Source: Cladocopium goreaui
Taxonomy: Eukaryota > Sar > Dinophyceae > Suessiales > Symbiodiniaceae
NCBI GenBank assembly: GCA_947184155.2
Contig: CAMXCT020000515.1
Location: 78,501 to 142,500 of the forward strand
Direction: 5' to 3'
DNA length: 64,000 nucleotides
The translations under genes and the position numbers were made by a program. Positions 31,424-52,833 of this stretch are shown here, piece by piece. The notes below the pieces were generated by a model that was not told the DNA's origin, did not search any database, and saw only the letters and a program-made list of their open reading frames with translations. How positions within the stretch are numbered: position 1 is the first letter of the stretch; the number at the start of each line of letters is the position of its first letter.

Positions 31424-31841
31424 CTAATTTGAAAAGATGCCGCCAGGGCTAGTCACAGAATCCGCAATCTGATCAGCAGTGCCTTCGGCATTGTTCATCT
31501 GCCGATCATCTACATACACTAGGCCGTTCTTGAACACGAATTCATTTTGAAAAGTGCCTCTTGGATTGTCTTGCGGCGCTGGTGGCCACTCTTTGCAGAG
31601 CCTAATGGGAAAGATTTGCAACTTGTTGTCGTGTGCATATTCCAATTCATGGAAGGTTTCGTAACCAACATCTGTATAGGCGCCGTAGTCCGACGTGCAG
31701 AAGGCCACCATGCCTTTGGCACGGGCCAATCCTATCCGCGTCAGCTCGGCAAAACTTTGGCCGACCTGGGCTTGGACCATAAAGACTGGAACTTTTCTCT
31801 CTTCCAGACGCCTTTTCACCGTTCTCATGTAGTTCATCGTC
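31424..31841 (-). CDS. TIR-like domain, last exon (copy B)
   Basis: After acceptor CCGAG/G the exon reads about 138 codons to TAG at 31424. It has the same strand and helix order as copy A (VKRRLEERKVPVFMVQAQVG, MVAFCTSDYG, ETFHELEYAHDN, LQIFPIRL) and keeps the candidate Glu in HELEYA. Differences from copy A are mostly conservative (S/T, I/V, N/K), and neither copy has an internal stop. It is followed by sequence matching 16.56-16.75 kb. Confidence 0.65.
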
Positions 31842-32449
31842 CTCGGTGGCCAGAAAGTCCACATGGCAGGGAGGATGCAACCAATTGTCACTTGAAAAAG
31901 TAAGGATCGAAATTCAACAACAATATTTGGACCTAACTCCCAAAATGCCGCCAATCAATCTATGCCAATCTCAGATCAGAAACCTTTCACTGTTGAACCG
32001 GCCACTCAGCAGCAAATGGCATCGCTCTGGACGTGGCACCTCAGACAGCTTGATCCACAGATCCACGTTGGATCCAACCCTTGGATCCAACCCTTGGATC
32101 CCATCTTCTCACGATATCACGAGCTCCGCTATCGATATTCGATTCGAAAGTATGCATTATTGATCATTGTACATTGATGTACATTGTACATGTTCAAAAA
32201 TCCGGTGTCAACATGTGTCAACCCATCTGATTTGCATGATCCAAGCAATGGCACGTTTCAAAAAACCAGGTGGGCTCTGCTGTTTTCACACCTTCCAATT
32301 CTACTCCCATCCACTACTTGACATGTCGTGCTTTCTTGTAATTTCACACCTTCTGCGTCTTAGATCGTCTTAGTGCTTTTCTGAACCGTGCACAAATGGG
32401 GTGTGCTTGAAGGTGGTGTGCCAAGAACCATGAAAAGGGCTCTCAGCCA

Positions 32450-33146: not shown

Positions 33147-33196
33147 GTGTTCCCGAATAGAATTCAAAATGACAGAAACGGAACAAAGCAACTGCA
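33147..33196 (-). repeat. 50-bp terminal sequence B2
   Basis: This matches 37352-37401 with one mismatch (C for G at 33165). It includes the last codons and the TGA stop of the RT ORF and borders the TA microsatellite. Confidence 0.85.
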
Positions 33197-35818
33197 AGGG
33201 CAGGGCTGGATCTGGGGGTTGTGAAGCAGCTGGAGGAGAAGCTTTGCAAAGGATCGTATGAGCTTGCCGGGCTTCCCTGAGGTAGTCGTCGCGGATTTCC
33301 ATGCCCAAAATGGCTGAAGAAAAGGGCGACTGAGGGGCCAAGCTGCCGTTGCCCAATTTAATCGTCCCAGTGCTCTCTCAATCTCCTTCACCGTGAAGGT
33401 GTTGCCCGCAGCGATGGTCTGAAGGAGTGCCTCAAGTGTCTTCCTCTTATCTGGAGGGAAGTCGACCACGGGTCCGCATGGATTGACCTGGAAACCTAAC
33501 CAGGTGTTGACCTCAGATAACACCGTCTTGTGCCAACTGAGGGGGCATCCCATGGCTGCTAAGGAGAGAAGTAGTTTTGCCGTATCCTCAGTGGCGGAGT
33601 CCGTCCTGAGGAGCCAACAAAAATCGTCCACGAACACAAAGCCCCAGTCTATGTGTGGAAACATCATGTAGCATAGTCTGAGGAGGAGTGCCGCCATTCT
33701 GCCCCAATAAAGTTGGGCGCTGGCCATACCATAGGTACCCACCTTGTTTATCCACCATTCACCATCAAGTTGTGCTACCTGGTAGCGCCATTCGTTGGAT
33801 TGGACCTTGATGCGGCGGTGTGCTTTTGAAACATCTGCTTTCAAAAGTGCCCAGGTGGTTTGTTTGTGTGGAGGTTGCCAAGCCAGGTCGGTGCAAGACG
33901 CTACCGTCCCAGATGTCTTCTCCTTCGTGGTGGTTAGCCAGTGAATGGCTTGAACACAGTCCATCACTGTGGGTGCAGTGGTCTTCTCAACTGTGTTTTG
34001 TTGGATGTGTGAGTTTGCATGGCCCCAGCTTCCGTCGTAGATTGTGCGGATTTTAACTCCTTCGTCAATTGCCGCCAGGGGCCCTGGGCAGAGTTCATCT
34101 GGGGTGCATCCACAGCGGAGTGCAGCCTCCTCCTGTGTGAGTGGGCCCTCAACCATACCCATATCTACCTCTTCCACGAAGGTCTGTCGAACCTGAGAGG
34201 AGAAATCTTTTGCCGAGGGGTAGTTGTCCCTGCCCATGGGTATTAGGAGGTCCTCCCACAGAGGGGATTCTCCTTTGAGTTCTTCCTTGGTAGGCCATAT
34301 ACCTGGTGACGTCCAGGTGGGTGTGGTGACACCTAAGGGGACTCCCTTGGCAACCCTTGTGGGGTAGGCTGCATCTGCATCTCCACCAGCTTCCGCTAAG
34401 GCTGAGATGAGGTTCAGATAGAACGGCTGGCCTGGCTCCATCTCCTCAGCAATTTGGTAGTCCAGCCCGATCCCTTGGGCAATGGCCCGTCGTGTCTCCT
34501 GAAGAAGTTCCTTCGGGAACGGATGTTTTCTTTCACCCCTGTTGATGGACCGTTGGACGTCCTGTGCACATCCTTTTGCCAGGTGGCTAATGGAGTCTCC
34601 AATGTGCTTGATCTTGGACTGAGGTCTGAGCGGGGGAGGTCGTCTCCCGGCTGAGGGCTTACCTCCTCCATCCCGTAGAGGTCTAGTCTTGAAGCCTGAT
34701 TGAACGATGATCGGGTCGTCATCCAAAGTCATCGTCTGGGAGAGGGGTACCGATGAGGAGCGGTCTGTCCGACCTGGAGGCTCCCCTTCCTGTTGGCACC
34801 CGGTGGGTTGATGTCCTGTGGTTGGAATGCTCTGGATGATTGCTGCTGCTAGCCCTGCCATCAGTGCTGGCGGGTATCTGCTGAGGTCCCGGGAGGTCAT
34901 CTCCATTGGCCTCAAATGTTCAGAGTGGTTGCACTGGAGGCCTTGCCAATGGTGAATTGGAAGGTCCGTTGAGAAGGTCGTACTCTTCTGTGCCCTTTGT
35001 CCCAGTCTGCACTGGTCCAGGTGGATCTGGCAGTGATTTACCTCTTTGGCCCACTCCTGGTAGACTCTAGTGGCCCATATCGATGAACATTTTGCCGCCG
35101 TTGGTGCTCGACTACACTCAGCTGGATCACGAGGGTGTTCCAAGAACGAGTGGAATCCTTGGTTTTGCCTGGCTTTTGAGGCTAGGGCAGTGATGACCAG
35201 TTGCCGGAGCAGAAGGATACTGTCCTTGTCTGTGTCCAACTGTTCTTCCAGGGAATTTGAGTCAAGGCCCCATGTCTGGGAGGGATCACGCCCTCGTACT
35301 GGCCTGGGCGCTCCAGGCTTTGGAAACCATCGTAGGATGCTCCAGGTCCGGCAGTTGGGGCCGCCCCCCACAAATGACAACTGGCCCCTCGCGGCGGCGC
35401 AGCAGAGAGTTGAGTAAAACTCATCATCCAATATGTCGTTTGGGCCCTTTTCTGGTGGCCTCAGGATATCCACGGCAAGGAGCCTGGGGGCCAGGTCCTG
35501 GTGTTGTTGGATGAGTATGTCATCCAAGGCTCCTCCGTCACTCCTGCCAGTGTAGAGGAGTAGTATGTCCCTCCCTTGGAGACTACCCGTGGGTTGTGTG
35601 GTCCATACAAGGCGTTCCAACAGCCTGTTCGGAACCGATGAGAGCCATGGACAGTGCCCAAGCAGGGACTGTCCATTCATGATCATCGTTGTATCAAGTG
35701 GTCGGCCCACTGCCTCTTGTTGTGAATGTGGTGTGCTTGTGTCGTTGGGGTAACCTGGGGGAGACTCCCCCGGTTCCGTTGTTGCTTGGTTTTTGATAGG
35801 TGTTGGGGTGTCCATCAA
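33164..35818 (-). CDS. reverse transcriptase polyprotein with methyltransferase-like N-terminus
   Basis: An 884-codon ORF from ATG 35818. The RT palm has motif A ([13 protein letters not shown], about 658-670), motif B ([15 protein letters not shown], about 694-708), the catalytic FVFVDD (727-732), then GCPLSWHKT and WLGF, and a thumb-like [18 protein letters not shown] (817-834). Residues about 110-330 resemble the DNA-methyltransferase-like domain of other dinoflagellate retroelements: [10 protein letters not shown] at 151-160, LEHPRDP at 226-232, [13 protein letters not shown] at 311-323. Whether it is active is unknown. No RNase H follows: the ORF ends 50 codons after the thumb, and its last codons lie in repeat B2. 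The frame is open upstream of the ATG to a TGA near 35867, so it may be made by frameshift from gag. Confidence 0.92.
33889..33906 (-). repeat. 18-nt VASCT motif, in RT ORF
   Basis: Minus strand CGGTAGCGTCTTGCACCG, in frame as V-A-S-C-T (residues 639-643 of the RT ORF). Identical to 35833-35850. Confidence 0.85.
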
Positions 35819-35832
35819 CCCTGGTGGGTGAT

Positions 35833-35850
35833 CGGTGCAAGACGCTACCG
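35833..35850 (-). repeat. 18-nt VASCT motif at the gag/RT junction
   Basis: Minus strand CGGTAGCGTCTTGCACCG. The gag stop TAG is inside the motif (CGG TAG), while in the RT frame it reads V-A-S-C-T, 10 codons before the RT ATG. Confidence 0.85.
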
Positions 35851-37206
35851 GATCCGCCAGGAGTCAACGGTGTGGGCATTGCTCTGGGGTGTGTTCTGAG
35901 GGTGCGGCGTTGCATACCCAGCCATTCTTAGGACCGGACAGTTGTGGGAGCGTCCGCAGTTCCCGGGACATTTCTTCTTGAGGAAGTGGTCACGGCAGTA
36001 CTGTACTCCCTTGGGTGAGATCTTAGCCCAGTTTGAAGGCCATTCAGAGTCCTTCCCTTTTCCGGATCCCATGGCCCCTTTGGCCTTACCCCCTTTGGGT
36101 GACCCTTTTTGTTTGTTCCATTGTGGCTGAGTTGGTGACCACGAAGGTTGGCGTCCCTTTGACTTGGCTGGTCGTGTTGGGGAGTCAGGCCCGGAGCCTT
36201 TGTTGCCTTTCTGCCGGGCGACAGACTCATAGACCTCTCTGGTCCAAAACAGGGTGTCCTGACGTAGTTGGGCCATGGCCTCCTTGAGACCCAGTCCCCC
36301 GTAGACCAAGTTGTGGATCTCCCTCCATGCGTTCCTTTCAGCGTAGAGGAGAACCTGTTCACTGGGCGGCGGTCTCCTGTCCGCAATGTCTTTCCCCCAG
36401 AACCATCGGTACCAGTCCTCTAGGTCCCTGTGGGTGATGTTCAACTTCGGCATGCTGGGAAAGGAGAGGATGGCCATGAGGAGGTTGGTTCGAAAGACCA
36501 GGTGCATGTGCTCCAACTGACGCCTCGTAGTTGGGAGTTTCCGTGTCTCCTCCTCTTCTTCCTTTTCCCATCCATCGACCGTCACCTTCTTGGTGGTCTT
36601 GATAGGCCGCTCATCCTGGTCTGGTAGGGCTGATATGATGTACTTGCTGGCAATCCAGCCAACTTCTCCTTGCGCACAGAGTTTGAACTGTTTCTTCAAC
36701 AAGGCATCCGAGCCTTGATCCTCCAATCGTGGGAGTGGTAGCTGGACGACCACCGTCCATGTCTGCAGGAGCTGGCGTCGATCACACAGGGCATCCAGTG
36801 AGGGCGCCGCCTGTGACGTCGTCGGTAGTAGCCCTGCGGGTCCCACTCGGCCCTGGTTCAGGCCCCCAGTGCCCAGCAACTGTTGTGCTTGACGGACACA
36901 TTGTGAGATGCGCATGGCCAAGTGATTCGTCTTCTCTTGTGTGATCAAAGCTCCCCCACGGTCTGTGTGACGGAACTGGAGGTCTGCTGGGGAGTTGTTC
37001 CGGGCCTCCGTGATGGTGGGCCATCGATCGGCAAGGTCCTCCACCGAGCGGTAGCCATCTGATGCCATCCTTGCCATGATGAAGTATGGGATCTCCTTGG
37101 ACTGGAAGATAGTCAGGACTTGTTGGTGAAGCAGATCCACCTGATCCTTATATTGCTCGGGCACCACATCAGGTGGGGAATCCAATACATCAGGCACCGC
37201 CGCCAT
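35845..37206 (-). CDS. gag-like ORF with CCCH/zinc-knuckle-like motif
   Basis: 453 codons from ATG 37206, which lies 30 nt after leader A2; the frame is open further upstream but without an ATG. A helical middle region includes WYRWFWGKDIADRRP and YGGLGLKEAMAQLRQDTLFW. A basic Gly/Lys/Pro-rich stretch follows, then C-RDHFLKKK-C-PGN-C-GRS-H (C-x8-C-x3-C-x3-H) near the C-terminus, a plausible nucleic-acid-binding motif. Position ahead of RT, a basic region and a Cys/His motif all suit gag. No family match is claimed. Confidence 0.8.
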   Translation of the reverse strand: MAAVPDVLDSPPDVVPEQYKDQVDLLHQQVLTIFQSKEIPYFIMARMASDGYRSVEDLADRWPTITEARNNSPADLQFRHTDRGGALITQEKTNHLAMRISQCVRQAQQLLGTGGLNQGRVGPAGLLPTTSQAAPSLDALCDRRQLLQTWTVVVQLPLPRLEDQGSDALLKKQFKLCAQGEVGWIASKYIISALPDQDERPIKTTKKVTVDGWEKEEEEETRKLPTTRRQLEHMHLVFRTNLLMAILSFPSMPKLNITHRDLEDWYRWFWGKDIADRRPPPSEQVLLYAERNAWREIHNLVYGGLGLKEAMAQLRQDTLFWTREVYESVARQKGNKGSGPDSPTRPAKSKGRQPSWSPTQPQWNKQKGSPKGGKAKGAMGSGKGKDSEWPSNWAKISPKGVQYCRDHFLKKKCPGNCGRSHNCPVLRMAGYATPHPQNTPQSNAHTVDSWRIR

Positions 37207-37235
37207 GTTCGAAAAGTAGGGCAGTGGTGGGTGGG

Positions 37236-37351
37236 TTTTCGAAAGTATTGGATCGCAGGGGGAACAGCTTGAGCCAAAATGGCATAGCCATTTTGGCAAC
37301 TATATCGTCAACACATTACTTGCTCTCCACAAGTTCCAAGCAAAGAAACAA
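37236..37351 (-). repeat. 116-bp leader A2
   Basis: Identical base for base to 43669-43784. It starts directly at the end of B1 and ends 30 nt before the gag ATG. Confidence 0.95.
37268..37297 (-). promoter_or_regulatory. spliced-leader-like 16-mer and palindrome in A2
   Basis: Minus strand 37283-37268 reads GCCATTTTGGCTCAAG, the last 16 of the 22 nt of the dinoflagellate spliced leader. It overlaps a perfect inverted repeat at 37273-37297: GCCAAAATGGC, 3-nt loop, GCCATTTTGGC. An out-of-frame upstream ATG (ATGGCTATG) begins inside it and overlaps the gag start. Confidence 0.75.
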
Positions 37352-37401
37352 GTGTTCCCGAATAGAATTGAAAATGACAGAAACGGAACAAAGCAACTGC
37401 A
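37352..37401 (-). repeat. 50-bp sequence B1
   Basis: End of the recombinase module; matches B2 with one mismatch and abuts A2. Confidence 0.9.
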
Positions 37402-37506
37402 TCGGTCAGTCAGCACCTTTTGTTATGCAGTTGGCTTTGCGGCTGTGTTTCTGTCAGATGCCAATCGCATCAATCACAAATGGTTTCACAGAAACTCTGA
37501 ACTGCA

Positions 37507-37562
37507 GTGGTGGTGTCACACGTCAAAATCCACCCACACCGAAGGTCGGGTGACACCACCAC
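37507..37562. repeat. 13-bp perfect inverted repeat after the recombinase ORF
   Basis: GTGGTGGTGTCAC (37507-37519) and GTGACACCACCAC (37550-37562) with a 30-nt loop. It lies between the recombinase stop and B1 and could form an RNA hairpin or serve as a recombinase site. Confidence 0.7.
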
Positions 37563-37607
37563 GCCAAACCGAAGGATGGAGCCCGACCAAAGGTAGGACC
37601 CCTCCCT

Positions 37608-37626
37608 CGGTGCCAGAAGCTAACCG
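37608..37626 (-). repeat. VASGT motif variant, 3' of recombinase ORF
   Basis: Minus strand CGGTTAGCTTCTGGCACCG: the 18-nt motif plus one inserted T, 25 nt after the recombinase stop, so not translated. Confidence 0.7.
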
Positions 37627-37650
37627 TGGAAAGAGGGCCCCCTCAATTGT

Positions 37651-39681
37651 CTACCTGACTAAGGTCCCAGCTGGGAGCTTATCATCATCCGACGCTGTGT
37701 CATTGGCATCATCTGAGAAGAGGTCTGAGCTCAGTGCGTCGGAGTCCGAATCTGAGGTGCTGGCCGGTTCAACCTGGTGTATGTTCCCCCAGCCTGATGG
37801 AAAATCATGCGACTTGAAGCACCTGGTACACTTTGCATATCTGTGAGGTTCTTGCCTGTAGTCTTCCGGATTCAGGTCAAGAGCTTTTGACGCTGATGGT
37901 TGCCATCCACAACCCACCGCCTTCCCATCCTGGTTTAGGAGGTGGATGTTCATGAGTCCAGTGGATCGATTGACCTTCGAGGCACTGACCACTCGGAGGG
38001 AGCCCCCCCGTGGTGTAGATTCCGGGAGGCCCGGGGACCATGATAACTTCTGCCAGCTCCCTGTCGAGGAGTCTGGAGAGGCCGCCTGCTTCTCGGCAAG
38101 GGCCTGCCTCCTGGATTTGAGTGGAGGCGATCCTGACTTGTCTGGACTGTCCCTCGGGGGCGATGGGTCCAATTCGAGGATCTCCGTGTCCCAGTCTTTG
38201 TGGTCCAGGTCAATGGGGACTGTCTTGGCCCCCGTCAAGTCGAGCTTCCCCAGTTTGTCTGCCACGGCAGTCCAAGCTCTCTGGACAACCTTCCGTTTTT
38301 CTCGGGTGTAAATGTCTGCAGTGCTCTCGGTCGTCCAGTTTCCAAGGTATTGACGTTGATCACGTGGCATACCCAGTTGGTATGCACAGTCCGGGATGAA
38401 GACCCGGAAACTGTGCCAACTCAGGGGTCTGAATGCCGAGCTCTCCAGTGTACCTTGACGATGAAGGGCATCCTTCAACCATCGGAGAGTCCGATCTGCC
38501 TGTCCCGGTCGGGGAATTAGGCCCGTGAAGTCAGAGCTGACTGTTGGGATGAGGTAGTCCATGTCCTTGAACTTGTCCTGGGCAATCAAGCGGTCCCAGG
38601 CTTGGGGGAGTATGGACCACCAGTCCAAACCTGTGAAGGAATAGAGTGGTGCAATCAATGGCACCGGGTTCTTCTTGATCCGGAATGCACTGACCGTTTT
38701 GGTCTGCCAGGCTTGAAGTTCCAGGGTGGCCTCGGTGAGTTTGTAACCCCCCGGACTGGTATGCTGGAGGTCATTGAACCTGGCACTGCAGGCAACTTGA
38801 AATCTGGCCATAGCGCAGATATATCTGTCCAGGACAAACTTGGGAGAGGATGATGAGCCCGTGGCGGTGGTGAGACCCCCTCCCGCGGCTATCTTCTCCA
38901 ACATCATGATGACCTCTTTGGATGGGAGCTGAGCCTTGCGCTGAGGCTTGATGTTGGTTTCCACCAGGCCTTCCTGGATGGTTTTCCTCTTCGCCTTGAG
39001 GCGTTCCAGGCTATCCGGGTCGAGGAGGCCAAACCTGGCCGAGAACCATCTTAGGGTATTCCATATCCCTTGGAGTTTGTGTGGTGTGATCTCCTGGTCC
39101 CTCAGGGTGTTCAGAAGAGATCTAATATCGCTTTCTTTCCAAGGAATTGTGTTGAAGCCCAATTTCTGGATGCTCTCGAAGCAAAGGCAATGAATACGCA
39201 AGGTCCTGAACCTGGTGTCTCCCAGAAGGTCCAAGTACTCTTGGTGAACATTGTCCCCGTGGACCGCATGCAGGTAAGGGATGTCTTTGGCAAAGGGCAG
39301 AAGGAGCCCAATGATCCTTTCTGCCCAGCGGTCTCTGAGGTGGAGTTCTAACTTCCTTTGGGTTGTAGCCGACTCTTCCTTGAGTCGCCCAGGCTTCCAG
39401 TGCCTCCATTTGGCCTCCACAATGGCCATTATGGGAGGCCGTGCATGAAAGGCTCGCCATCTAGCCCGGTCCATGCTTTCCTGTTGCTGTTGAAGGGGTG
39501 TGTGGAAGGCTGAATCTGGTGCGCCCGCAATCAAAGTGAAGAGGCTAAAACATGCATCATAGGTCCTATCTCTCTCTTCTGGGGGCGCTGGTTGTGGCAC
39601 CCGGTTCATGCAGTCTGCCACAAAGTCTTCCATCCAGGGCGTGGTAGCCACCATCATGGAGTTACTGTGAGCCACGTTCAT
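37651..39681 (-). CDS. tyrosine recombinase
   Basis: 676 codons from ATG 39681. The full catalytic set is visible: Arg301 (CSARFNDLQ), Lys328 (AWQTKTVS), His423 and Arg426 (SWHSFR), Trp449 (YLGNW) and the nucleophile Tyr458 (TADIYTREK). Such enzymes insert DIRS-type DNA without target duplications. A basic stretch follows the catalytic domain. The C-terminal 100 residues have CxGW, a C-x2-C (YAKCTRCFK, 618-621) and an acidic Ser/Asp tail (641-668). The start ATG overlaps the stop of an upstream 74-codon ORF as ATGA. Confidence 0.93.
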   Translation of the reverse strand: MNVAHSNSMMVATTPWMEDFVADCMNRVPQPAPPEERDRTYDACFSLFTLIAGAPDSAFHTPLQQQQESMDRARWRAFHARPPIMAIVEAKWRHWKPGRLKEESATTQRKLELHLRDRWAERIIGLLLPFAKDIPYLHAVHGDNVHQEYLDLLGDTRFRTLRIHCLCFESIQKLGFNTIPWKESDIRSLLNTLRDQEITPHKLQGIWNTLRWFSARFGLLDPDSLERLKAKRKTIQEGLVETNIKPQRKAQLPSKEVIMMLEKIAAGGGLTTATGSSSSPKFVLDRYICAMARFQVACSARFNDLQHTSPGGYKLTEATLELQAWQTKTVSAFRIKKNPVPLIAPLYSFTGLDWWSILPQAWDRLIAQDKFKDMDYLIPTVSSDFTGLIPRPGQADRTLRWLKDALHRQGTLESSAFRPLSWHSFRVFIPDCAYQLGMPRDQRQYLGNWTTESTADIYTREKRKVVQRAWTAVADKLGKLDLTGAKTVPIDLDHKDWDTEILELDPSPPRDSPDKSGSPPLKSRRQALAEKQAASPDSSTGSWQKLSWSPGLPESTPRGGSLRVVSASKVNRSTGLMNIHLLNQDGKAVGCGWQPSASKALDLNPEDYRQEPHRYAKCTRCFKSHDFPSGWGNIHQVEPASTSDSDSDALSSDLFSDDANDTASDDDKLPAGTLVR

Positions 39682-39902
39682 AGGGTCGATGTCATTGCTG
39701 GGGTGTACCCGAGAGGTCCAGGTTCCCCATCCATGGCCTCCGGATGGTCCGGTGGCACTTGTTGCATGCAGAGCTGCATGAACAACTCCCCCTCCGTTTG
39801 TGTGGGGAAAATTCCATGGTCCAGCAGGCTGTCTCGCATGTGTTCAGGAAGCCGAACCATTGCCAGGCCAAAAGGTGTTCTACGCACAAGATCGGGTTCC
39901 AT
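39678..39902 (-). CDS. small ORF overlapping the recombinase start
   Basis: 74 codons starting MEPDLVRRTPFGLAMVRLPE and ending at a TGA that overlaps the recombinase ATG by two bases (ATGA). The composition is protein-like and Pro/acidic. It could be a separate reading frame coupled by reinitiation, or the N-terminus of the recombinase reached by a one-base frame change. Two other frames are also open here, so coding is not certain. Confidence 0.45.
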   Translation of the reverse strand: MEPDLVRRTPFGLAMVRLPEHMRDSLLDHGIFPTQTEGELFMQLCMQQVPPDHPEAMDGEPGPLGYTPAMTSTL

Positions 39903-40320
39903 GATGTCCCGACTCTACTATGGCCAAGCCTGGCCCAAAAGAGGGTACTGCGGGTGTGCGGAGCACTAACACGTGAAAAGAGCAAGCTGGAATAACAACA
40001 CAGAAAGCCTAGGAAAAACCATCAGAGTTGCAACAGGACAGAACTGAGTGCAAGCCACATTGGACAACAGTCACATCAGCGTAATGGGCGAAGCCCGAAA
40101 GGATACCAATAACATCAACCAAGGTAAAACATGGTAAACTCAGAATGTTCAAAAAGCAACATGCTGTAAATGACTCTGAGGCAGCCACATGCAGGTTTCC
40201 CTTTTCACTGTGTGAGCTGGCATCCCAGCGGTCTGGCCCCTGTCTTGGCCCTTGTCGTGGTGCGCAACCAATGCTATTCATACAAAAAGGAAGGTGTCTG
40301 CAGAACCGAGTGGTGACGTT

Positions 40321-40336
40321 GGTGCAAGACGCTACC
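40321..40336 (-). repeat. VASCT motif, 3' of the large ORF
   Basis: Minus strand GGTAGCGTCTTGCACC, 45 nt after the stop of the 1,086-aa ORF; same core as in the RT ORF. Confidence 0.8.
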
Positions 40337-40380
40337 AGGCCACCAGGTCAGTAAAACAGCCCTTCGCAAAAACTCCGCTC

Positions 40381-43300
40381 TCAGGCAGGCCGGACTCTGC
40401 TCGCTGCCAGCGCGTTGATCTTCTGAAGGCCCTCGAGGTCCGGATTGCTCAGAAGGACCGACCAAATGGCGTTGGAAACATTGGCATTGCCATTCTGGCA
40501 AGAAAACTTCAAGCGTTGGGTGTGGTCAGGGTCCACATGCAATGCCACATCTCGCGGGGCCGCAGTCGGCTCCACCCTCTTGTAATACTCAAGCCTGGAC
40601 TTCACCCAGCTGTTGTACAGCTGTTGAGGTGGCTCGTCCAAAATCAGTTGGAGGTTGACTTTGACTCCCCGGTGCTCTCCAAGCAATTGGACAAAGCGGG
40701 AAGCTCCTTTCCCTTGTCTCCAAAAGCCCTGGCAGGCCTTGCAGACCCAGCCTCCACGAGTCACTCCAGCCTCTTTCGTCTTCAGTTCCCAGGGACTGAT
40801 ACTGCTGAGGATGAGCCCGCAATCAGTGCGGCCCCAAAAGGCATGGACTCCACGGTGGCCATAGTGCTCCCGCTTGTACTTGGGGCTGCATATGGAGACC
40901 ACATTTTCCAAGGAGAGCTCGGGGTACTTACCGGTGCCCGAAGCTACCGTAGTCGCCCGCAGAGCCTCCGGCTCCAGTGCAGTCTTCAGGAAGCCATCAA
41001 TCTCTGCCTGGGAGTAGCCCAGACGGCAATAAAAGCTCTCCGCCTTCTCATGGGGAACCAGGGCAACCCACCATAGCTCACAGTTGCACCGCCAGGCAAC
41101 TTGCACTTGCACCATGCTGTGGGCCCCCAGAGTGGCTGACAGCGCCTGGAAAACGTCCGGGAGCTGCCTGAAAGCATCCAAGGGCAAGGTGATGCGCTCA
41201 TCACAAACCGCTCGAAAACGGAGCTGCTCCTTTGTGTCCTGGATGTCCTGCTCGGGCAAGTCCAAGACCACCGCTGGGGTTCTGGCTAAGAAAACCGAAG
41301 CAGCCAAAAAGCTGCCAATTTCCTTGTAGAGCAGCTTGATCTCATGTTGTGATTGGGGAAACCGGAGGCCCACACTGGTGAGGAAGGACTTGATCTCTGA
41401 AGTCCTCTGCCGGTGTGCCGCCAACTCTGCCACCTTCTTCTGGCGGATGCCTTCCCCATGCCCTCTGCGCATCGGTTTGATGATCAGCGGCATGCCACAC
41501 CAAGCCTGGTAGATCTCCTTGAACGTCCAGGACTGTCCAAGCATCGTGATCATGGAGGGAAGGTCCCATGATTGCACCCTTCGAACCAGGTGGGTATCGT
41601 CGGTGCCAGAAGCTACCGCCGTCCCCGGGGCCCAAAAGAAGCCAATGATCTTGTCCAGGTCGGGTCGCTTGCCATCGGCAATCTGTTGCAGGACCACCTG
41701 TTCGGTGTAGGTTTTGGGCGTGTAGAAGGAGGTGCCTAGCGGGTTTGTCCTGAGTTCCAAAGCCAAGACCTCAGTCGTAGGTGCCGGTTTTGCCCAGGCA
41801 GGTGCCGTGAGCGGGCCCTGTCGCAGCTCCCACTCTCCGCCCCAGGCTCTGACTTCACCTTTGTGGTACTGCAAGATGGAGTCAAGGATTGCGTACTTGC
41901 GTTCAAGGCTGTCAGGCGGGAGGAGTCGTGCTAACTGGGCCTCTTGGGAAGATATCATCTCCGTCCCCGTGGTGTACATGTCGAGTTGAGTTTTAGGGAA
42001 CTCCGTCATGAGGCGGTCCTGGGAAAGCGGAGGCTTGTTATCCTTGATGAGCTCCTTCATTCGAAGGTATGGTTGCTTGAGTGCCTCCATGTCAAATTGT
42101 TCGGGTCCCTGCGGTCCCATGGCCGGCGCGAAGAGATTGTTCTGCCACGCCTCTTGCAGAGCCGGGGTCCAAAGTGAAAAGGACGCCACTTCAATGGGCT
42201 TGAGGGCCTTGCGACGGTCTCTGAATTCTGTGTCCAGGGCCTTGTTGGCGGCCGCCGCTTTCTCCTGTGTGGTCTGTGCTGCCACCAAAGCCTCGTAAGA
42301 GGAAGTGAGGCCACTTTCTTCATGTTTTCTTTTGAGGTAGGACCGAAACTGCTGGAGGTCAGCGTGGCGAAGCATCTTGGCACTGACCGGATTCTGGGTT
42401 TCCTGTGCACCCTGCTGGATGGCAGTCAGTGTATGCAGCTCATCTTCCATCGCCACAGTCTCTTGCTGATGCTGAATCTCCTTCTTCCTCCTCTTGGCCT
42501 CCTGTGCCGCTTCTGTGAGCTCTTCTTCTGGTGTTGCCAGCAAGTCAACCTTGAAGCGCATCAGTTCAATGGTCTTCGGATGAAAGATCACCGCAGTTTG
42601 AGTAGAGTCTCGATCATCCATAGTGGGGGGGCGTTCGCCATCTGGATGAAAGATCTCGTCCTGCCCGAAGGCCACCACGTGCTGCTGCAGTGTCATGCGC
42701 TGGGAGGCAGGAACTTGCTCCGAAAAGCTGACCAGCCCCGTACCGGCGCCCGAAGCTGCCGCAGGGGGAGGTCGGCCAAGATCTCCCACTTCCACAAAGC
42801 CTGAGGCCTTAGTAACCTTAGTATCTGTGGGAACCCAAGTCGGTCCCGCCTCAGTAAGCCTAAGTTGCCAGGACTGGCCGGCCACCTCAATCACTGACAA
42901 AGGTGTCATTGACAGGTCAACAGGCTGAGAGCCTTGACAAAGCAAACATTTGGATAACTGCCCCCACGGTGCATTGCAATCAGAACAAACTAATTGCGGA
43001 GAAGTTCCAGGGTCCTTCTCTTTCAAATTCACCATGGATCCCCCACGCTGCGTGGTGTGCCGGAGTTTCAACATCTGTGTGTGGACAGCCTCGCGCTTCG
43101 AGATGTGGTAAACCTCTGCGATCTTGACCACCAAGGATGCCGTCCACGGAGAACTGCGGAAAGCGTCCAATAGGGAACGCAACTCACCATGCGTAATGTC
43201 TCTGAAGTACTTGGCAGCAGAGTGAGGCAGGGCCGGGATCAAGGATGCCCAGCCTTCGATGGTGAAGGTCTCTGTGGTCGGATCCATGTGGAGCGTCAAC

Positions 43301-43641
43301 GTCTCCTTCTCTAAGACCCGTAGTGTCTGGGTCGGAGTCTGTGCCTCTGCATGGACGAAACCCGACGGGGGTTGCCCACTTGACGCTTCTACACTCGTCT
43401 CCGGCTTGGGTTCCAAGCCCAAGTTTGCCATCACTTTCTCCATCTCATGGAGCTGCGAAGCCAGTGTCTCCTTGGTGATGGCGGGATCATCTTCAAACTC
43501 TGTCGTAACCTCGGCCGGCGCAGCCTCGGTCACCTGGATGGAAAGCACCATGTAATCATCCCCTGCGTCCATATCTGTCCCAATCAGCGAGAAGGAGCCC
43601 ACGGTGCCAGTCTCACTAGCAACTGGACTAGAAGCCGCCAT
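40381..43641 (-). CDS. large unknown ORF of the retroelement (1,086 aa)
   Basis: Open for 1,086 codons from ATG 43641, 28 nt after leader A1. Like gag it starts Met-Ala-Ala. I do not recognise the family. Visible features: a zinc-ribbon-like C-x2-C-x9-C-x2-C (CSDCNAPWGQLSKCLLCQ) at about 219-235; a Lys/Glu/Gln-rich coiled-coil-like stretch in the middle; a second Cys pair, CKACQGFW, near the C-terminus; three in-frame VASGT-type motifs. The lack of stops over 3.3 kb and the shared leader show that it belongs to the element. Possible roles are a second structural protein or an accessory DNA/RNA-binding protein; neither is shown. Confidence 0.85.
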   Translation of the reverse strand: MAASSPVASETGTVGSFSLIGTDMDAGDDYMVLSIQVTEAAPAEVTTEFEDDPAITKETLASQLHEMEKVMANLGLEPKPETSVEASSGQPPSGFVHAEAQTPTQTLRVLEKETLTLHMDPTTETFTIEGWASLIPALPHSAAKYFRDITHGELRSLLDAFRSSPWTASLVVKIAEVYHISKREAVHTQMLKLRHTTQRGGSMVNLKEKDPGTSPQLVCSDCNAPWGQLSKCLLCQGSQPVDLSMTPLSVIEVAGQSWQLRLTEAGPTWVPTDTKVTKASGFVEVGDLGRPPPAAASGAGTGLVSFSEQVPASQRMTLQQHVVAFGQDEIFHPDGERPPTMDDRDSTQTAVIFHPKTIELMRFKVDLLATPEEELTEAAQEAKRRKKEIQHQQETVAMEDELHTLTAIQQGAQETQNPVSAKMLRHADLQQFRSYLKRKHEESGLTSSYEALVAAQTTQEKAAAANKALDTEFRDRRKALKPIEVASFSLWTPALQEAWQNNLFAPAMGPQGPEQFDMEALKQPYLRMKELIKDNKPPLSQDRLMTEFPKTQLDMYTTGTEMISSQEAQLARLLPPDSLERKYAILDSILQYHKGEVRAWGGEWELRQGPLTAPAWAKPAPTTEVLALELRTNPLGTSFYTPKTYTEQVVLQQIADGKRPDLDKIIGFFWAPGTAVASGTDDTHLVRRVQSWDLPSMITMLGQSWTFKEIYQAWCGMPLIIKPMRRGHGEGIRQKKVAELAAHRQRTSEIKSFLTSVGLRFPQSQHEIKLLYKEIGSFLAASVFLARTPAVVLDLPEQDIQDTKEQLRFRAVCDERITLPLDAFRQLPDVFQALSATLGAHSMVQVQVAWRCNCELWWVALVPHEKAESFYCRLGYSQAEIDGFLKTALEPEALRATTVASGTGKYPELSLENVVSICSPKYKREHYGHRGVHAFWGRTDCGLILSSISPWELKTKEAGVTRGGWVCKACQGFWRQGKGASRFVQLLGEHRGVKVNLQLILDEPPQQLYNSWVKSRLEYYKRVEPTAAPRDVALHVDPDHTQRLKFSCQNGNANVSNAIWSVLLSNPDLEGLQKINALAASRVRPA
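40932..40949 (-). repeat. 18-nt VASGT motif, large ORF copy 3
   Basis: Minus strand CGGTAGCTTCGGGCACCG, read in frame as V-A-S-G-T. Confidence 0.8.
41601..41618 (-). repeat. 18-nt VASGT motif, large ORF copy 2
   Basis: Minus strand CGGTAGCTTCTGGCACCG, read in frame as V-A-S-G-T; GACG occurs on both sides. Confidence 0.8.
42744..42761 (-). repeat. 18-nt motif, large ORF copy 1 (AASGA)
   Basis: Minus strand CGGCAGCTTCGGGCGCCG, read in frame as A-A-S-G-A. The two substitutions are both T/C or A/G transitions from copy 3. Confidence 0.75.
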
Positions 43642-43668
43642 AGGCAGAACAAGAAGATCGGAACGTGT

Positions 43669-43784
43669 TTTTCGAAAGTATTGGATCGCAGGGGGAACAG
43701 CTTGAGCCAAAATGGCATAGCCATTTTGGCAACTATATCGTCAACACATTACTTGCTCTCCACAAGTTCCAAGCAAAGAAACAA
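43669..43784 (-). repeat. 116-bp leader A1
   Basis: Identical to A2. It is the outer 5' end of the element; sequence at 43785 and beyond is unrelated to B. Confidence 0.95.
43701..43730 (-). promoter_or_regulatory. spliced-leader-like 16-mer and palindrome in A1
   Basis: Same as in A2: 16-mer at 43716-43701 and palindrome at 43706-43730. The upstream ATG pair is also present and its frame overlaps the large ORF start. Confidence 0.75.
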
Positions 43785-51962: not shown

Positions 51963-51999
51963 CTGCAATGCTCTCAGGTTTGGCTTTTGCTCTGGTGAC

Positions 52000-52833
52000 C
52001 TTCAAAGTAGACAAAGTCGATCAGGAAGGTGAGACCAAGCAAGCCGGCTTTGCGTTCAGCGCTGGAGCCTTGGGGGAAGACCACGGCAAAGGTGTCGGCT
52101 GTGGAGCAACACTCCTTCATCAAACCAGCCCAAACTTTGCGAATCTGCGGTGTGTTGGGATCATTGTACTGGCCTCCGATGACTTCATCCTTCTCACCAT
52201 GGAAGTAGAACGGAATGTAGACCAAGCCCTTGCCACTGCAGCAATCACATGCAACGCAGCAACCGCCGCAACAAGTTTCCGGCTTCACCATGTAAACCTG
52301 CTGTCCATTCTCATGGTAGGTGAACTTTGGCACAAAGCAATGCGCATCACAATGGTAGAGGGACTGGGAGTTCAGTGCTTGACCTTGAGGAGACATTGGC
52401 GTTAGGTTTGGCAAGCAGCAGCAGCATGGGCAATCCATTGATCCTCCATTCTCACTTTGAACTACGATGAATGCAGGGCAAGTGAGAGGCTTGTCGTAGT
52501 ACAGTACTTTCTCACCACCGGGTCCTCCCCCCTCTGAGATCTGCAATTGGAGTTGCGTCCTGCAGGATTGCAAACCCTGCAACAACAACTGGACTCCTCG
52601 GTGGCATACAATACATCTGGAACCGACATTGCCATGTCACTGACTCTGTAGCCATCCATCTGGTCCGCGCTGAAAGGTGCCACCTTGTACTCTGACTTGG
52701 CATCACAGCCCAAGCGTTCCTGAAGACAACCTCTCATGGTCTGCTTCACCAAAAGTGCCTCATGGGGTCCAAACGCGGCCTCAAGCTTCGACTCACTTCC
52801 CATGTCAATATCCATCTGCTTTGGTGCCTCCAT
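52000..52833 (-). CDS. phospholipid scramblase domain, with a frame break
   Basis: ATG at 52833 in good context (AGCCATGG). The first part reads LEAAFGPHEALLVKQTMRGC, then YKVAPFSADQMDGYRVSDMA and ATEESSCCCRVCNPAGR. The frame then shifts by one base near 52556-52566 and continues with Cys clusters (CPCCCCLP, CCGGCCVACDCC) and the typical C-terminal signature, VWAGLMKECCSTADTFAVVF followed by AGLLGLTFLIDFVYFE. Scramblases are membrane proteins that mix phospholipids between leaflets, often Ca-dependent, with palmitoylated Cys clusters and one C-terminal hydrophobic helix. Length about 277 aa fits the family. The shift may be an assembly error, a disabling indel or recoding; no room exists for an intron. 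Confidence 0.8.

Follow-up and report, generated by a model that had tools for sequence, protein, structure and literature searches.

A putative tyrosine-recombinase retrotransposon of Cladocopium goreaui in which an internal copy of the joined ends separates two gene pairs

PAT elements, a type of tyrosine-recombinase (YR) retrotransposon, carry their gag, reverse transcriptase (RT), RNase H (RH) and methyltransferase (MT) regions in the order gag-RT-RH-MT. Split direct repeats of the form A1...B1A2...B2 have been described for the PAT, Ngaro and VIPER types (PMC4157794, PMC8547959), and SymbioDIRS-Dnmt3 of Symbiodinium already has a shuffled order of integrase and Pol (PMC5890265). The same A1...B1A2...B2 arrangement of direct repeats is found in the dinoflagellate Cladocopium goreaui, in a 64,000-nucleotide stretch of contig CAMXCT020000515.1 (assembly GCA_947184155.2, positions 78,501 to 142,500; hereafter the window). 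We consider it probable that the element in question is a YR retrotransposon of about 11.5 kb with the structure A1-[X, YR]-B1A2-[gag, Pol]-B2, X being a large additional reading frame, and that its internal B1A2 junction works together with the host spliced leader in the manner proposed below.

On the minus strand, the window copy runs from host DNA through A1, X, YR and B1 directly into A2, gag, Pol and B2, and back into host DNA. An earlier note on this DNA, made from the sequence, had described two coding modules with the same ends, and that layout stands: the two A copies are identical (116/116 bp) with a start-to-start spacing of 6,433 bp, B1 and A2 adjoin at 37351/37352 with zero intervening bases, and four open reading frames (ORFs) are present with stop-to-stop lengths of 1,119 (X), 730 (YR), 484 (gag) and 899 (Pol) amino acids. 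The 50-bp B of that note does occur at both places, but its copies match at 49 of 50 positions (98%) rather than fully, and it is only part of the true end. In 7/7 other copies first read, Pol extends a further 820-855 bp before B, after which comes host DNA that differs from copy to copy. Full-length copies read through B2 share a 3' end of 185 bp, here called B', consisting of 135 bp of 3' untranslated sequence and the 50 bp of B. A stretch of about 855 bp is missing from the window copy between 33196 and 33197, and the 50-bp B is therefore the leftover of this deletion. The window copy is also frameshifted in gag and at the start of YR. Two other copies, L045 and L055 (contigs C5788 and C472), are missing one and the same 111-bp stretch close to the 3' end of X.

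Recurrence was assessed across the 1.17-Gb genome with DNA queries from A, X, YR, gag and Pol, which gave 59 contigs overall from the best 40 or 41 places for each query, and with a 28-nt pattern spanning B1A2 (at most one mismatch allowed), for which the reversed pattern served as control. The earlier note had proposed such a search for B-A junctions, together with a count of single-module loci. The junction pattern occurs 53 times, once per contig (52 exact, one with one mismatch), against 0 occurrences of the control, so the junction is not a product of chance. These 53 include non-independent loci, as C3810/C3014 and C4867/C3607 share left flanks and are duplicates or haplotypes. The gag-Pol module lies downstream at every one of the 53 junctions and X at none; the assignment rests on a gag match at the expected distance for 37 junctions, on gag or Pol sequence read beside A2 for 13 more, and on a downstream Pol match for the last three (C4113, C5295 and C5981). 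Similarly, X is upstream of gag in 32/32 contigs with both matches among these best places, with a spacing of roughly 6.1-6.5 kb except in C5122 (4.8 kb) and C1229 (8.5 kb), and YR was found upstream of the junction in the copies read. The junction sits just upstream at 37 of the best 40 gag places, the exceptions being C2057, C4862 and C5122; in the latter two X lies upstream and the junction itself is unread. The element is thus one unit, X-YR-B1A2-gag-Pol, whose modules are normally joined and were never seen swapped. The 32/32 contigs and 53/53 junctions bear out one suggestion of the earlier note, that of a four-ORF relative of PAT/Ngaro-type elements with a large unmatched protein. They speak against the other, that of a bipartite retroelement as the normal state.

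All four ORFs are under purifying selection, judging by ratios of nonsynonymous to synonymous change (dN/dS) obtained from change counts against the window copy. X gave 0.06-0.08 in 6/7 copies and 0.18 in the close copy L053, YR 0.04-0.12 in 14/16 pieces, gag 0.03-0.04 in 8/9 main-family copies, and Pol 0.14-0.38 in nine copies, with a value of 0.03 when the diverged L074 was compared. Of 43 matches to X, 26 have an uninterrupted frame of at least 1,090 residues. A single TGA separates gag from Pol in the same frame in 7/9 copies of the second module, and L042 and L058 have the same TGA plus a frameshift on one side, an arrangement that suggests stop-codon readthrough.

The identities of these proteins had to be drawn from short motifs. 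YR is presumably a tyrosine recombinase (HSFR...Y), and we take Pol to contain an RT (FVDD and a motif-A-like motif), an RNase-H-like motif and, at its N-terminus, a degenerate methyltransferase-like stretch with a motif including LEHP; no library recognised the YR, RT or RNase H, and Pol had no Pfam DNA_methylase match. X, YR and Pol had no usable match in Pfam, PHROGs, NCBIfam or PDB, where only weak matches below cut-off appeared, and gag had none in Pfam, PHROGs or NCBIfam, the PDB search having covered the other three. Nor was there a usable hit when profiles of Pol and YR were compared with solved structures, and no relatives came from one viral-contig scan with an RT piece or one tblastn of phage records with YR. 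The missing Pfam match for the RT fits the statement that Symbiodinium DIRS RTs align poorly to Pfam (PMC5890265). A 16-nt motif, GGTAGCKTCKKGCACC, was also observed seven times in the element (at most two mismatches), in every case in sense orientation, and the remainder of the window has none (0.15 expected). It stands shortly past the X, gag and YR stops, inside X and inside the RT, by eye keeping the phase of the neighbouring ORF, and six of the seven sites were recovered in other copies read.

The layout extends to diverged families. Contig C1123 carries A1-X (X 71% identical) and B-A-gag (gag 79-85%) 6.47 kb apart, and the order X (76% over 242 bp), YR (83%), B-A-gag (85%) is kept in C4670. 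For C1322 (Pol 79.5%) and for C1001, C1546 and C4224 (gag 70-85%), the sequence read covers only the junction or what follows it. X is about 71% identical in C1123, C757 and C618. Despite the divergence of the genes, positions 1-84 of A (98.8% identity in C1322 and C1824) and the final 24 nt of B are nearly constant, and the layout is therefore old and its ends constrained. Comparison of the window subfamily with others gives patchy divergence within X and YR and almost none across B1A2, a pattern that reads as a subfamily mosaic. Matches of 78% in YR beside 98% in gag had first suggested that modules reassort. We rejected this, and with it any swapping of segments, as the profile against seven copies comprises scattered divergent patches in X and YR and no break at the A or B ends. 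One such patch in YR (38585-38984) differs by about 10-20% between subfamilies, with both sides mostly 95-99% alike. Another RT-like stretch, recognised by eye, was seen at the start of L078 (C757), alongside a string of N next to a family-2 A, and possibly belongs to a further DIRS-like family.

The ends of the element are precise: A begins with TTGTTTC and B finishes with GGGAACAC, each directly on host DNA. The 21 distinct left flanks are 74% A+T, 12 of them ending in TAT or TAA, and the 14 distinct right flanks are 77% A+T. Left and right flanks share an end-match of only 0-4 nt in 8/8 copies, little above the expectation for A+T-rich DNA, so no target duplication is evident. Positions 69-84 of A equal the last 16 nt of the dinoflagellate spliced leader (DinoSL; sequence from PMC2606063), and this match is present in both A1 and A2. 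Relics of this kind, CCATTTTGGCTCAAG, are carried by dinoflagellate retrogenes, where TG has been proposed as the likely acceptor (PMC12014239). In the A versions examined, TG precedes the relic except in L069 (TA), and L067 is altered inside the relic. A versions vary in length exactly at the relic, with nothing, CTATG or CCAAAATGGCTATG between GTTG and CCATTTTGG in different families. B' folds into a long hairpin (z = -3.96), and none of 200 shuffled sequences was as stable. Two candidates concerning A were discarded. The palindrome GCCAAAATGGC-TAT-GCCATTTTGGC was considered as a recombinase site and is not essential, being absent from A2 of C4670, C1001, C4224 and C1546. C1322, in which A 1-84 is joined to Pol-ward sequence at the exact end of the leader relic, was taken as a trace of trans-splicing and then withdrawn, because the A of a second family diverges just past nt 84 and C1322 is most simply a deleted member of it.

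In the mechanism we propose, A would be the 5' end unit of two mRNAs, to each of which the host leader would be added beside the spliced-leader relic. An mRNA for X, or X-YR, would begin at A1 and one for gag-(TGA)-Pol at A2, each ended by the B' hairpin, and the genome would be a read-through RNA from A1 to B2. Through trans-splicing A1 would lose roughly its first 68 nt, and the RNA might lose its 3' end too. The internal B1A2, as an intact, pre-joined copy of both ends, could then act as template or splint that restores them and forms a B-A circle junction, after which the YR would recombine the new B2-A1 junction with an A+T-rich site.

Several points weigh against this reading. Trans-splicing, the two mRNAs, the read-through and the end restoration are inferred from DNA, and the DinoSL match may be only a fossil. 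A circle with two equal B-A junctions should integrate in both orders, yet 0/53 copies are permuted. The model therefore requires that integration use the newly joined B2-A1 junction exclusively; either the internal junction is unused for integration or permuted copies do not persist. The hairpin of A is weak (z = -2.16, with 7/200 shuffles as stable), its palindrome is missing in the four contigs named above, and neither RT nor YR has a usable match in the four libraries. Finally, of 148 A starts in the genome at most 53 are at junctions, and at least 42, even if every junction has an A1 partner, lie outside junction-bearing elements or in elements with a mutated junction; most of these are unread.

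It is possible, if somewhat doubtful, that this is a split-direct-repeat element in which the DinoSL match records one past retroposition, B1A2 has no role in mRNA expression and the A1 transcript serves for gag-Pol expression. Such relics are common among the retrogenes of dinoflagellates (PMC12014239). A mere fossil is harder to reconcile with a relic kept in A1, in A2 and across families with gene differences reaching about 30%, and with first ATGs that lie 27 nt (X) and 29 nt (gag) past A. The proposed spliced-leader mechanism also has a bolder form, which we put forward tentatively and regard as rather doubtful. Here the spliced leader would take part in the replication of a YR retrotransposon: trans-splicing would trim the genomic RNA at its 5' end, and the B-A junction would store and restore that end while separating two leader-bearing mRNAs. 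Either module could occasionally circularise and insert alone, as in an element heading to or from a two-segment genome.

We think it quite unlikely that X-YR and gag-Pol each undergo reverse transcription and insertion on their own by way of A and B, the joined form being a tandem insertion. Each module does have its own A and B', and the proposed count of single-module loci was fruitful for one module: contig C2057 has a solitary gag-Pol module with precise ends and host DNA on both sides (full length by spacing, mid-Pol unread), and C324, found via A, has a gag module that starts at a host flank (5' end only, 83% identical to the window over 69 bp). The A starts outside junction-bearing elements point the same way. 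The first 100 A starts listed include 27 on contigs that have no junction (26 contigs), and of ten such contigs read at A, five lead into X (C247, C618, C757, C1692 and C2445), three into X-start-like sequence by eye only (C67, C519 and C1824) and two into gag (C2057 and C324). As for contigs that carry X but no junction, C1692 and C3661 terminate at the expected place or short of it, C757 has a run of N there, and in C2445 and C917 element sequence is absent from about 1 kb at that place. In the few candidate places read, we saw no X-YR module standing alone with a B end of its own. Independent tandem insertion should moreover yield both orders, whereas all 53 junctions have the same one, and modules that normally live apart are not what the junction-linked 37 of the best 40 gag places and the two solitary gag modules describe. 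A solitary gag module is explicable equally as an insertion of its own or as the outcome of a deletion that joined A1 to its identical copy A2. A chance composite or rearranged insertion peculiar to this locus, with two elements side by side, has almost no probability left: the deletion and frameshifts of the window copy would suit it, but recurrence at 53 junction-bearing contigs with 21 distinct left flanks, and in diverged families, already refutes it.

The features of the window copy are collected in Table 1. Outside the element, a minus-strand ORF at 31427-31954 has a weak TIR-domain match just under the curated cut-off (PF13676, E 1e-5), and another at 51977-52636, also on the minus strand, matches Scramblase (PF03803, E 2.6e-12) and is probably a host exon. 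Rfam matches in the TA-rich flank were to microRNA families under gathering scores and were dismissed.

Table 1. Coordinates of the element and its parts in the window
Feature	Position	Strand	Remarks
Whole element copy, A1 to B2 remnant	33147..43784	-	A start and B end against host flanks
A1, 5' terminal unit, 116 bp	43669..43784	-	Identical to A2
DinoSL relic in A1 (last 16 nt of the dinoflagellate spliced leader)	43701..43716	-	Leader sequence from PMC2606063
ORF X, 1,086 aa counted from first Met	40384..43641	-	No family match; dN/dS 0.06-0.08 against 6/7 copies
537-bp interval between the X and YR stop-to-stop ORFs	39844..40380	-	YR ORF starts within the interval in other copies
ORF YR, presumed tyrosine recombinase (HSFR...Y); start region frameshifted	37651..39843	-	
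B', common 3' terminal unit, 185 bp in other copies, strong hairpin	37352..37536	-	
B1, 50-bp part named in the earlier note	37352..37401	-	
A2, internal A copy, adjoins B1	37236..37351	-	
DinoSL relic in A2	37268..37283	-	
gag ORF, first Met 37206; frameshift near end	35845..37299	-	dN/dS 0.03-0.04, 8/9 main-family copies
Pol ORF, presumed MT-like N-terminus and RT; RNase H part lost	33197..35863	-	
B2 remnant from the Pol/B' deletion	33147..33196	-	
GGTAGCKTCKKGCACC copy, one of seven dispersed in the element	35834..35849	-	Others at 33890, 37609, 40321, 40933, 41602 and 42745

Models underlie the current view of how YR retrotransposons rebuild their ends, and a host leader relic within the ends, together with a junction that divides gene pairs, makes the question testable. 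The proposed mechanism offers a reason for an internal copy of the 5' end in an element of a trans-splicing host, and the fixed order (0/53 permuted) is a constraint on circle-based integration models. Protein X is a large protein under selection that matches no library searched.

In the open-licence literature searched, we did not find a junction that parts two ORF pairs, the recombinase pair leading, a large ORF X, or a spliced-leader relic in both A copies. The closest likeness is to PAT elements (nematode-form PAT1 and Kangaroo, members of the DIRS order), which also have A1-B1-A2-B2 repeats and whose internal repeats sit between MT and YR (PMC4157794). Genes on both sides of the junction are thus already present in Kangaroo and nematode-form PAT (PMC4157794), and what sets this element apart in that respect is that it has two ORF pairs of which the recombinase pair comes first. 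In PAT elements YR follows the RT-MT block (PMC4157794), and gag-RT lies upstream of YR in the PAT/Ngaro order; in the C. goreaui element X and YR precede gag-Pol, a circular permutation of that order, with an extra ORF X of about 1,090 amino acids. SymbioDIRS-Dnmt3 is described as A-coding region-B-A-B, with coding before the internal junction, and the available part of its description mentions no large extra ORF (PMC5890265). The junction of the present element instead stands between two ORF pairs, and its Pol has a presumed degenerate motif in place of a Pfam DNA_methylase match. Ngaro elements likewise combine split direct repeats with YR, RT and RH (PMC8547959), the latter three presumed from motifs here, and unlike this element they place their ORFs ahead of the internal junction, as A1-[ORFs]-B1A2B2 (PMC8547959). 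DIRS1-like elements, whose internal end copies are thought to join the termini into a circle and which make no target duplication, are comparable to this element in its proposed mechanism and in its lack of an evident target duplication, but their terminal repeats are inverted (PMC3266345), whereas those of the C. goreaui element are split direct repeats.

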